IMG/VR virus record: IMGVR_UViG_3300030104_004642
Coordinates: 51,003 to 115,002 of that record
DNA from: a virus
Direction: 5' to 3' (one strand)
DNA length: 64,000 nucleotides
In this document: in pieces, positions 57,175 through 62,723 of the stretch
Layout: each line of letters begins with the position of its first letter
Position numbering within the stretch: the first letter of the stretch is position 1
Position numbers and translations under genes: made by a program
The notes under the pieces: model-generated
Seen by the model: only the letters and a program-made list of their open reading frames with translations
Database searches by the model: none
Told to the model about the DNA's origin: nothing

Positions 57175-57203
57175 AGTTTAGCAGTTTATATAGTCCCTGT
57201 CAA
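57175..57203 (-). promoter_or_regulatory. Sigma-70-type promoter for the glycosyltransferase gene
   Basis: A perfect TTGACA (57198-57203) is 17 bp from TAAACT (57175-57180) on the minus strand, 24 bases before the ATG. The -10 context TAAACTGAC resembles the AAACTGTCC block of the seven-copy early element. Confidence 0.6.
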
Positions 57204-57240
57204 CTCAGACCTTTGGTCTTCACTAGTGAGGTAAACCTCC

Positions 57241-57444
57241 CTAGTAGGAACTCTCCTCCCTGGTCCTTAGGGTCTCCACCACCTCATAGGTGATGTCATC
57301 CACATCATACTTAGTATCCAATAACTTCACCATCTCCCTTAATGTATTATACGTATCAGTAAACTTATTCTCATCTAAACAATTATAAACACATTCTCCC
57401 CTCAGGTAAATATGGTAAAATTTTTCTGTGGGAATTTTTTTCAT
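57241..57444 (-). CDS. Small acidic protein of unknown function
   Basis: A 67-residue protein from the ATG at 57444 (MKKIPTEKFYHIYLRGECVY). The frame is open upstream, but the terminator and promoter at 57466-57505 rule out the longer start. The pattern KxYHIYLRGxC...TLxEMVKLL...DDITYEVVE is a small alpha/beta unit that I recall from other cyanomyovirus genomes without known function. Confidence 0.7.
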   Translation of the reverse strand: MKKIPTEKFYHIYLRGECVYNCLDENKFTDTYNTLREMVKLLDTKYDVDDITYEVVETLRTREESSY

Positions 57445-57465
57445 ATAAATCGTTTCTATTTTTGA

Positions 57466-57495
57466 ATTATATAGAGGTATAAAAAAAGAGACCAA
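57466..57495 (-). promoter_or_regulatory. Sigma-70-type promoter before the 67-residue gene
   Basis: TTGGTC (57490-57495) and a perfect TATAAT (57466-57471) are 18 bp apart on the minus strand. The predicted start is about 15 bases before the ATG at 57444. The -35 box lies inside the terminator stem. Confidence 0.55.
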
Positions 57496-57505
57496 TATAA
57501 GTCTC
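57481..57505 (-). terminator. Intrinsic terminator upstream of the 67-residue gene
   Basis: On the minus strand GAGAC and GTCTC (57488-57492 and 57501-57505) pair around an 8-base loop, and seven T follow at once (57481-57487). It would end transcripts coming from 57950 and shares bases with the next promoter. Confidence 0.6.
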
Positions 57506-57675
57506 AGGGGTATATACTTTTGTAGGTTGCCATAGACCGGTCTTTTTCGTAGGGGGGGGGTCATAATCCTTAGGGTTTACTACGCCCCCCAGGGCACCAA
57601 CGCTTACCCCCATAAACACTGTCATTTTGGATAACACTGTCAGTCTACCACATGTGCCCCCTATGTGTCAACCTG

Positions 57676-57786
57676 TGTGGTCCACATAGTAATACTGTGT
57701 GTTACACATAGGTTTGATAAGTATTACTTACTGTGGGCCACATAGATTATATGGGCCACAATAAGTTTTCCTTATTGTGTAACACA
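57676..57786. repeat. Palindrome cluster 1: five TGTG...CACA sites
   Basis: Sites with an 11-bp core are TGTGGTCCACA (57676), TGTGTTACACA (57698), TGTGGGCCACA (57732), TATGGGCCACA (57750, one mismatch) and TGTGTAACACA (57776). Four are perfect odd-centred palindromes. Two larger inverted repeats enclose some of them: AGTAATACT/AGTATTACT (57688-57696 with 57720-57728) and CACAATAAG/CTTATTGTG (57757-57765 with 57771-57779). Confidence 0.85.
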
Positions 57787-57806
57787 TAGGGGTCACACAG
57801 TAGGTA

Positions 57807-57950
57807 TCAGAATTCCAGTGTAATACTGGTGTCATTCTCCACAAGATTCACACCATTATCTGCGTCTGCCTGAATAACATCCAGGATCTGCAAGATCTCT
57901 GACCCAGTGTTACCCTGTGCCAGCATTCCAAGAGCAAGAGTGCGTGTCAT
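57807..57950 (-). CDS. Small protein between palindrome clusters
   Basis: A 47-residue frame from the ATG at 57950 (MTRTLALGMLAQGNTGSEIL). The open frame extends 17 codons further up but the family-like start is here. The GNTGxEILxIL pattern is one I associate with short cyanophage proteins of unknown function. It is acidic and helical. It has its own promoter (58050-58078) and lies between the two palindrome arrays, so it is a candidate partner of them, though a 47-residue helix is small for a DNA-binding protein. Confidence 0.65.
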   Translation of the reverse strand: MTRTLALGMLAQGNTGSEILQILDVIQADADNGVNLVENDTSITLEF

Positions 57951-58049
57951 GATGAAGTAGTTTGTGTTACTTAGTGTGAAATGTGGGCAGTTTATAGTCA
58001 TACCAAGGACTGTTAAAGTTTAAGAGTTATCTGTGTCCTTCACCCTTAT

Positions 58050-58078
58050 ATTATATGACCCCTTGGTGTATCTGTAAA
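58050..58078 (-). promoter_or_regulatory. Sigma-70-type promoter for the 47-residue gene
   Basis: TTTACA (58073-58078) and a perfect TATAAT (58050-58055) lie exactly 17 bp apart on the minus strand, about 100 bases before the ATG at 57950. TTTACA is also the T4 early promoter -35 form. Confidence 0.7.
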
Positions 58079-58195
58079 GGGGCATTGTGCAGGTTCTGAG
58101 AGTGTCTGAGAGGGGTTGACATAACTGGGAGTTGATGATAGACTGCACGCTAAAATAACAACACCCAGGTACATTTATTGGACCAATAAAAACCA

Positions 58196-58356
58196 TGTGT
58201 TACACATACTTTTCATGTGTTACATATGCCCCCTATGTGTTACAAATACAGGGGTTCTCATGTGTTACACATAGGATGGATTTATGTGGTCCACATATAT
58301 CTGTGTGGGACACATATGTGTAACACATACATTTAGTGTGGTCCATGTGTAACACA
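58196..58356. repeat. Palindrome cluster 2: nine TGTG...CACA sites
   Basis: Core starts are 58196, 58216, 58236, 58261, 58285, 58304, 58317, 58337 and 58346. Perfect palindromes are TGTGTTACACA (58196, 58261), TGTGGTCCACA (58285) and TGTGTAACACA (58317, 58346); the other four have one or two changes in the second half. Several extend to 15 bp (TATGTG...CACATA). Centre spacings are 20, 20, 25, 24, 19, 13, 20 and 9 bp, so many lie near two helical turns. Confidence 0.88.
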
Positions 58357-58360
58357 TAGA

Positions 58361-58543
58361 TTAGGTGATATTTTCCAGACTATTCTCTAGATTCCTCTGC
58401 ATTTGGTCAAGGAAATCTAATCCTTTCACAGTTGCAATCCTCTCATACTCATCAACAATCATTTTGAGATTATCCCTACAAGATGTTGGAAACCTCATCA
58501 GTTCTGTCTTACCTAACTTGGGATACTTTGAGGAGAAAGGCAT
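58361..58543 (-). CDS. Small protein downstream of an operator-like promoter
   Basis: A 60-residue helical protein, MPFSSKYPKLGKTELMRFPT at the start, ending in a KGLDFLDQMQRNLENSLENI helix. It is bounded by palindrome cluster 2 after its stop and by two palindromes in its promoter (58562-58602). The TELMRFPTSCRDNLKMIVDE segment could pass for a short helix-turn-helix-like pair, which would fit self-regulation, but this is speculative. I know no function for it. Confidence 0.65.
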   Translation of the reverse strand: MPFSSKYPKLGKTELMRFPTSCRDNLKMIVDEYERIATVKGLDFLDQMQRNLENSLENIT

Positions 58544-58561
58544 TACTCAGGGGGTCAAACA

Positions 58562-58595
58562 TGTGTTACACATATTATAGTCTATGCGTAACACA
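58562..58595. repeat. Palindrome cluster 3: two operator-like sites in a promoter
   Basis: TGTGTTACACA (58562-58572) lies just after the -10 box, and TGCGTAACACA (58585-58595, one mismatch) lies between the -35 and -10 boxes of the promoter at 58574-58602. Confidence 0.8.
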
Positions 58596-58602
58596 TAGTC
58601 AA
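58574..58602 (-). promoter_or_regulatory. Sigma-70-type promoter overlapped by palindromes
   Basis: TTGACT (58597-58602) and TATAAT (58574-58579) are exactly 17 bp apart on the minus strand, about 30 bases before the ATG at 58543. Palindrome cluster 3 covers the spacer and the start point, as a repressor operator would. Confidence 0.7.
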
Positions 58603-58616
58603 CAGGGTGATAAGAA

Positions 58617-58865
58617 TTAGGGCGTAACCTCTCTCAGTAGGATATTGTATTCCTCTGAATTATCATTGAAATAGGATGTTATTTCATCCTGCATATCTGT
58701 CTCATCATACTGATCATAACTCTGAAAGAGTTGATCATATACAATCTCACATAGGGTATCAAGATCCATGGAATCAACAACCCTCTCACAGAAGACTTGT
58801 TTGAGTTTGTTTAGTTGTTCTGAGGTCATCTTATTAGAAAAATGAAGTGAACCTGGCGTAATCAT
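58617..58865 (-). CDS. Small acidic protein of unknown function
   Basis: An 82-residue protein if it starts at 58865, where the ATG overlaps the preceding stop (ATGA) as in the rest of this gene chain. The family-like start MTSEQLNKLKQVFCERVVDS at 58829 would give 70 residues. It is acidic and helical (CEIVYDQLFQSYDQYDETDM). Proteins of the form MTxEQLxKL...ERVVDxMDxxTL are common in cyanomyovirus early regions; function unknown. It is the last gene of the chain from 59761. Confidence 0.7.
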   Translation of the reverse strand: MITPGSLHFSNKMTSEQLNKLKQVFCERVVDSMDLDTLCEIVYDQLFQSYDQYDETDMQDEITSYFNDNSEEYNILLREVTP

Positions 58866-59128
58866 TGTGTCCATTGGTTTGTTTTTACAAGATACTTTTT
58901 AATCTCAGTATAAAGGAATTTTTGTAGTTTGGGGTCAGTTGTTTTATCAAGGGCATCATATAACCTTGCTATGTAATCCTTCTCCCTCACCACATTGATG
59001 TTATCCTTGGTTGAGAATCCTAGGTCTTTCAGATTACTTCCTGCCTTTACTTTTGTCTTTCCAAAGTTACCAGTAATGTTGCCTGTGGTTCTGAACTTTG
59101 GTTTGATTTTGGAGAGGTTTGATGTCAT
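58862..59128 (-). CDS. Small basic protein of unknown function
   Basis: An 88-residue protein with a basic, Gly/Lys-rich first half (MTSNLSKIKPKFRTTGNITG) and a helical second half (REKDYIARLYDALDKTTDPK). The ATG overlaps the stop of the gene before it by four bases. A basic tail plus helical bundle could bind nucleic acid; no family is recognised. Confidence 0.68.
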   Translation of the reverse strand: MTSNLSKIKPKFRTTGNITGNFGKTKVKAGSNLKDLGFSTKDNINVVREKDYIARLYDALDKTTDPKLQKFLYTEIKKYLVKTNQWTQ

Positions 59129-59274
59129 TTAGTGATGATGTTTGAGGGTGGGTTTGTGAGTCTTTCCAGTGCTTCATTCCTCTCCTGAATCTTCTGGGTC
59201 ATATCAGAATTCAGCATACTAATCATTAGATTAGCACCTAGGATTGTGAAGATAACAAGTAGACAGATCCTCAT
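59125..59274 (-). CDS. Small one-helix membrane protein (49 residues)
   Basis: A 49-codon frame starting MRICLLVIFTILGANLMISM, a hydrophobic helix with a basic second residue, followed by a charged helix (MTQKIQERNEALERL). Both ends overlap neighbours by four bases (ATGA), which is strong support for a real gene. It probably sits in the host inner membrane. Confidence 0.65.
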   Translation of the reverse strand: MRICLLVIFTILGANLMISMLNSDMTQKIQERNEALERLTNPPSNIITK

Positions 59275-60028: not shown

Positions 60029-60068
60029 TTATACTATAAGGACACTTTGGGGGTAACTAACAATCTAT
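60029..60068 (-). promoter_or_regulatory. Early element copy 2
   Basis: Same element, with AGTTAC, 16 bp, TAGTAT and the variant AAAGTGTCC. Here the TAGTAT part is the centre of a perfect 15-bp palindrome, CCTTATA-C-TATAAGG (60027-60041). Confidence 0.7.
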
Positions 60069-62507: not shown

Positions 62508-62687
62508 TCACATTCCATTCATAAAGTCATGAATTGCAGCATGATATTCTTCCTCTGTATTGTATGTTCTACCATACATTGTCAGAGGAAACTCTTTCTT
62601 TTGAAACATTGTTGATGCTACCTGAACATCAGTTTTGTCATAACCCATCTCAACTAGGGTTTGAATGTAAGGATTGTTGTTTGTCAT
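62508..62687 (-). CDS. Small unknown protein (59 residues)
   Basis: A 59-codon frame, MTNNNPYIQTLVEMGYDKTD at the start, then MFQKKEFPLTMYGRTYNTEE. The TLVEMGYDKTDVQVASTMF segment resembles a small UBA-like three-helix unit. Its first ATG overlaps element copy 6; a later ATG (MGYDKTD) at 62648 is the alternative. It pairs with the 56-residue gene downstream. Confidence 0.65.
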   Translation of the reverse strand: MTNNNPYIQTLVEMGYDKTDVQVASTMFQKKEFPLTMYGRTYNTEEEYHAAIHDFMNGM

Positions 62688-62723
62688 ACCATAGGGACAC
62701 TTTACAGGTAACTAACAATCTAT
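62685..62723 (-). promoter_or_regulatory. Early element copy 6
   Basis: AGTTAC, 16 bp, TGGTAT, with the variant GTAAAGTGTCC between. GTATGA at the end holds the ATG of the 59-residue gene. Confidence 0.7.

Follow-up and report, generated by a model that had tools for sequence, protein, structure and literature searches.

The closest described systems to the locus reported here are the autoregulatory ribbon-helix-helix (RHH) repressors Arc of phage P22, RelB and MobC of RA3, very small proteins whose palindromic sites overlap their own sigma-70 promoter. In Arc, the bases are contacted by Gln9, Asn11 and Arg13, and the strand of the RHH fold forms in the dimer. The fold of plant TCP dimers is also of the RHH type, and these dimers bind GGNCCCAC / GGGNCCAC (PMC10049435). 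Two arrangements of T4-like genomes have to be compared as well: T4 oriE with repEA/repEB, where evenly spaced direct 12-mer repeats are clustered near a strand switch and beside small early ORFs, and the PeSL cassettes, where an early sigma-70 promoter lies next to inverted repeats and small variable ORFs. T4-type phages have been described as carrying PeSLs (cited in PMC4503421). Cyanomyoviruses lack the motA and asi genes of T4 and are thought to use the host sigma-70 for their early genes (PMC2984593), and for this reason a dedicated regulator of 60 aa would be meaningful in them. No dedicated early repressor of cyanomyoviruses was found in the literature searched.

We have analyzed a window of 64,000 nucleotides (bases 51003-115002 of the 115,002-base viral contig IMGVR_UViG_3300030104_004642) that contains an array of short palindromes surrounding a 60-aa ORF. 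Judged by its genes, the source contig is a cyanomyovirus, i.e., a T4-like virus of marine cyanobacteria, since its gp25-like and gp6-like baseplate genes are syntenic with those of annotated Synechococcus phages and it has a Kyanoviridae Gp96. It is likely, in our view, that the palindromes serve as operators for the 60-aa protein whose gene they surround; this protein would be an autoregulatory RHH-like repressor with predicted DNA binding, repression, dimerization and fold. The array, the promoter/operator geometry, the co-occurrence with the ORF and the co-inheritance of site type and protein type were computed directly.

Like Arc, RelB and MobC, the 60-aa protein is very small, has palindromic sites over its own sigma-70 promoter, and would have the strand-helix-helix order with a T-x-x-x-R-x-P strand. 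It differs from them in having no detectable sequence or fold match, in a first helix longer than that of Arc, and in the up to 15 sites, which extend past the end of the gene and into the gene itself. Near the ORF, neither a partner toxin gene nor a relaxase gene was seen. The TCP sites resemble the TGTGGNCCACA form of the array, but the TCP domain is eukaryotic and its profile similarity to the 60-aa protein (E = 0.25, over the strand and the first helix) is not significant and serves as a lead only; the resemblance is probably a coincidence or a convergence.

Palindrome array and promoter geometry

The TGTGNNNCACA pattern has 12 exact matches in the window, compared with 2.95 +/- 1.72 in shuffled sequences (maximum 7). 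Eleven of them are located at 57676-58572, and the remaining one is a TGTGAATCACA at position 83. The stricter TGTGKNMCACA pattern has 11 exact sites in the whole 115-kb record, every one inside the array: seven TGTGTWACACA, three TGTGGNCCACA and one TGTGGGACACA at 58304. With near copies at 57750, 58216, 58236 and 58585, the array comprises 15 non-overlapping sites with at most one mismatch inside 920 bp. The earlier note had described about 16 palindromes in three clusters, with none noticed elsewhere; the array, the clusters, the seven and three perfect palindromes and their confinement were all reproduced. One further imperfect palindrome, TGTGGTCCATG, was spotted by eye near 58337. The features of the locus are collected in Table 1.

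Table 1. Features of the array locus (window coordinates)
Feature	Position	Strand	Remarks
Promoter TTGACA-18-TAGACT, directly after cluster 1	57642..57671	-	10/12 consensus matches
Cluster 1	57676-57786	none	five putative operators: 57776, 57750, 57732, 57698, 57676
47-aa ORF between clusters 1 and 2	57807..57950	-	64 aa (57807-58001) in the ORF list, where an earlier start is used
Promoter of the 47-aa ORF	58078-58050	-	spacer without palindrome
Cluster 2	58196-58356	none	eight putative operators: 58346, 58317, 58304, 58285, 58261, 58236, 58216, 58196
60-aa ORF, proposed repressor, type A (MPFSSKYPKLGKTELMRFP...)	58361..58543	-	60 codons
Cluster 3	58562-58595	none	two putative operators, 58562-58572 and 58585-58595
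Putative operator adjoining the -10 box; in gene sense, TGTGTAACACA	58562..58572		begins one base past the -10 box
Sigma-70 promoter of the 60-aa ORF, TTGACT-17-TATAAT	58574..58602	-	11/12 consensus matches
Putative operator inside the promoter spacer, gene sense TGTGTTACGCA	58585..58595		position kept in 14/14 type A-C representatives

All the genes near the array are encoded on the minus strand, in the order 85-aa ORF, cluster 3, 60-aa ORF, cluster 2, a promoter free of sites, 47-aa ORF, cluster 1, a second promoter, 107-aa ORF, a glycosyltransferase-like gene and gp25. In gene sense, cluster 3 reads TTGACT-aTGTGTTACGCAtagac-TATAAT-aTGTGTAACACA, that is, the 17-nt spacer of the promoter of the 60-aa ORF is filled by one palindrome. 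This geometry recurs among the relatives, which we have grouped into protein types A to E: for types A, B and C, all 14 representatives have a palindrome within the spacer of the best sigma-70 match that lies 5' of the ORF. The overlap of operators with the promoter of the proposed repressor gene is weaker in type D, where the L128 promoter spacer holds a decayed site with another site at the start point and no strong promoter was recognised upstream of the ORF in L177, and it takes a different form in type E. In one type C contig (L172, 4918-4994) the promoter-operator unit is tandemly duplicated before the gene (TTGACT-TATGTGGGACACATGAGG-TATACT, repeated).

Cluster 2 begins 4 nt past the stop codon of the 60-aa ORF and has counterparts in types A and B. 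Its spacings are 29, 13, 19, 24, 25, 20 and 20, and the spacings of the whole family peak at 13, 20, 22-23, 33-34 and 43-44, which form two phase groups. The helical phasing previously proposed holds only in part: it is not simply one of two turns, and a simple 10.5-bp phasing of the sites gave a mixed result. A sequence similar to the promoter that follows cluster 1 is present in L005, L009 and L012, and this promoter, which points at the 107-aa ORF and the glycosyltransferase-like gene, is a possible second target.

The slot between clusters 1 and 2 is taken by alternative tiny ORFs, either the 47-aa ORF or one of 30 aa (MSNTQIFDALEAAENGSDLLMVLEAIAALY; L005 1286-1375), in a similar pattern. 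Two other perfect inverted repeats, TTTATTGGACCAATAAA and CACAATAAGTTTTCCTTATTGTG, are found at the cluster edges (58174-58190 and 57757-57779) and were not seen in L005 or L012. It was also observed that contigs often end within or beside the array (L007, L009, L011, L012, L016, L099 and L146), which may hinder assembly or vary among co-occurring strains.

Co-occurrence and co-inheritance of sites and gene

The retrieval led by gp25 yielded 80 loci, of which we considered the 34 that contain the beginning of the glycosyltransferase gene together with 1 kb or more of the sequence upstream. Thirty-two of these have neither the ORF nor a single site, L015 has both the array and the ORF, and L016 has the array on a contig that ends before the place of the ORF. 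A search of viral contigs led by the protein found homologs on 18 contigs, all 18 with palindromes, and 17 of them were also found independently by the DNA pattern search. A second protein-led scan added L177-L179, which the DNA pattern had missed and which contain numerous sites, often with a single mismatch. Type E consists of distant relatives of 54-56 aa encoded at other genome places, next to a DNA helicase gene in L203; of the 17 type E loci considered, 12 carry a single site whose end lies 9 nt upstream of the ATG, another carries a modified version of it, and in four no site is present.

All the carriers of the array are metagenomic contigs, and no carrier was found among named phage records. 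At the sensitivity used, the 60-aa family was not found in 50,697 phage records (one chance-level match only) nor in the bacterial and archaeal genome collection, and the DNA at 57200-59200 showed no similarity to phage records. The phages S-B43, Bellamy, S-T4, S-8S55, SynMITS9220M01 and AG-345-F15 have long intergenic gaps at the same place and no palindrome family there. An array at the syntenic place is conserved only in the phages with the 60-aa ORF; the first five of these named phages and most metagenomic relatives lack both array and ORF. Among 79 glycosyltransferase loci, no palindrome was enriched besides TGTG-N3-CACA, which is confined to the array loci.

The outer TGTG/CACA is nearly constant across the family, and the centre varies with the protein type: mostly TWA in type A (L15), mostly GGG in type B (K15), TCC/GGA in types C and D (R15) and mostly TCC in type E (H15), so that R15 and H15 proteins have a common centre. 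In the glycosyltransferase tree, L005 (A) groups with L127 (B), and L009 (B) with type D, whereas the repressor tree separates A and B. Since, where the two trees conflict, the site type agrees with that of the repressor, the operator type follows the repressor gene, suggesting that operator specificity is inherited with the repressor, a pattern that comprises about four lineages only. Because of this number of lineages, a code read by residue 15 is put forward as a hypothesis. L009 is a mosaic, with clusters 2 and 3 of type B and a cluster 1 of type A, unlike its repressor. As the earlier note had suggested, one protein might have a relaxed centre specificity, which is plausible because TGTGTWACACA and TGTGGNCCACA both surround a single protein type.

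In types C and D, sites are also found inside the coding sequence of the ORF. The site at codons 37-40 (Cys-Gly-Thr-His) is TGTGGGACACA in the six sequences compared, with invariant third positions in 5/5 cases versus 11/55 elsewhere. The other intragenic site occupies codons 22-25 in type C, and in L128 it is displaced to a position three codons further on.

Two other palindromic elements were set apart from this family. A TGTGTTACACA pair in L010 (8704-8753), in an apparently unrelated phage and beside a gene reading like a CI/LexA-type repressor, is probably an unrelated operator of the same sequence. At least 11 other viral contigs (L104, L106, L109, L113, L114, L126, L139, L147, L148, L151 and L160) have a TGTGGMGCACA / TGTGCTACACA-type palindrome pair 25 bp apart, which is a separate recurrent element.

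The 60-aa protein and alternative explanations of the sites

The predicted product of the 60-aa ORF is a tiny, previously undescribed phage protein, for which Pfam, PHROG and NCBIfam have no family. The ORFs of the window and L005 differ at 9, 10 and 28 first, second and third codon positions, i.e., mainly at third positions. T13, R17 and P19 are nearly constant across the family, and position 15 varies with the operator centre. The sequence pattern (a basic N-terminus, T-x-x-x-R-x-P and two helices) suggests a ribbon-helix-helix protein, and T13/x15/R17 would fit positions 9/11/13 of Arc if the R-x-P motifs are aligned. The AlphaFold monomer (15 sequences, pLDDT 77) has helices at 20-40 and 42-57, with no strand and low confidence at residues 1-19. 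No RHH family was matched in Pfam or NCBIfam, a comparison by hhalign with five RHH proteins aligned by hand gave a 6-10% probability (with low power, given the few sequences), Foldseek against the PDB gave no match for the model, and a weak similarity to SopB is a lead only. Because neither the profile comparison nor Foldseek detects an RHH match, we call the predicted protein RHH-like and do not file it as an RHH member.

The earlier note had read the array as a replication origin, a master early operator or an array for a dimeric DNA-binding protein. The second reading is not supported, since the 115 kb contain no exact TGTGKNMCACA site outside the array. As an origin, the array would consist of palindromic iterons with an initiator, as in T4 oriE, and the 60-aa protein would be a RepEA/RepEB-like factor; the dense repeats do adjoin small ORFs and an early promoter. 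We regard this as very unlikely because the GC skew is uniform over the window, without any signal at the array (the contig ends 5.4 kb beyond it), the genes nearby show no strand switch, and the array is missing from most relatives. Furthermore, the sites are palindromes with spacings of 13-44 in several groups instead of evenly spaced direct repeats, the promoter accounts for their positions, and type E has only one site.

The third reading is supported, and the likely binder is the protein encoded within the array, whose own promoter is built around two of the sites. The DNA binding of this protein is predicted, and neither the profile nor the fold comparisons matched it to a DNA-binding family, so that the sites might bind another protein, of the host or the phage, with the 60-aa ORF as merely one target. 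This is unlikely, given that the sites are absent without the ORF and present with it, even in relatives located by the protein only, and that the type of the sites stays matched to that of the ORF despite recombination; with a host factor, the centre would not vary along with the 60-aa ORF. Least probable of all, in our estimation, is that the palindromes act as RNA hairpins or as recombination or terminator cassettes of the PeSL kind and not as protein-bound DNA, even if a hairpin with a 7-bp stem and a 3-nt loop can arise from CTATGTGNNNCACATAG, the type E palindrome lies over the ribosome-binding region and the L009 mosaic lies at the array. No site matches a terminator, the two terminator-like sites found being outside the array, and the spacer site is upstream of the start of its own transcript. 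Unlike those of PeSL cassettes, the inverted repeats overlap the promoter instead of ending the transcript, and they are specific to carriers of one gene. Asymmetric centres are found in both orientations, and the mismatches (27 in the 5' arm and 26 in the 3' arm) cluster at the symmetric positions 2 and 10, do not favour a pairing-preserving arm and break pairing in 40 of 53 cases. This is as expected if a symmetric dimer reads the site as a dyad in double-stranded DNA.

Proposed regulation of the locus

If the 60-aa protein does use the palindromes as its operators, its gene would be transcribed after infection by the host sigma-70 RNA polymerase from the near-consensus promoter, and the product would dimerize, with an expected RHH-like fold made of an N-terminal strand around T13-x15-R17 followed by two helices. 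The dimer would bind the TGTGNNNCACA dyad, and by occupying the -35/-10 spacer and the start point it would shut its own promoter early in infection. Repression should be reinforced through cooperative binding, roadblock or titration by the many sites downstream and, for types C and D, by those within the gene, and cluster 1 may widen the control to the promoter that reads in the direction of the 107-aa ORF and the glycosyltransferase-like gene. What counts against the operator reading is that clusters 1 and 2 lie off the promoter of the ORF, where their role is a guess, together with the four siteless type E loci, the discordant cluster 1 of L009, and an AlphaFold monomer of two helices without a strand or any DNA-binding family match.

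The predicted repressor would be a concrete early regulator of these viruses, and its family would offer a natural recognition-code series, relating residue 15 to the operator centre, that includes operators written into the codons of the repressor itself. It is conceivable, although rather unlikely, that T4-like cyanophages, which have no lysogeny, use the module as a switch for superinfection immunity or copy sensing. In that case, the TWA, GGG and TCC/GGA centres would define immunity groups, in which the early promoter of a co-infecting phage of the same type is silenced and a phage of another type escapes, and this would explain the specificity differences among phages with very similar neighbourhoods.

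Two further observations concern repeated sequences outside the array. Phage S-8S55 has, near the same locus, a perfect 300-bp direct repeat (L096 7311-7610 and 7654-7953). Moreover, a conserved cassette, approximately GTTACCTCTAAAGTGNNCCTATAGTNTAA, precedes small ORFs in several cyanomyoviruses (60029-60057 and 62684-62712 on the minus strand of the window; L092 5372-6837), with none expected by calculation, and probably represents an early promoter preceded by an unusual element.
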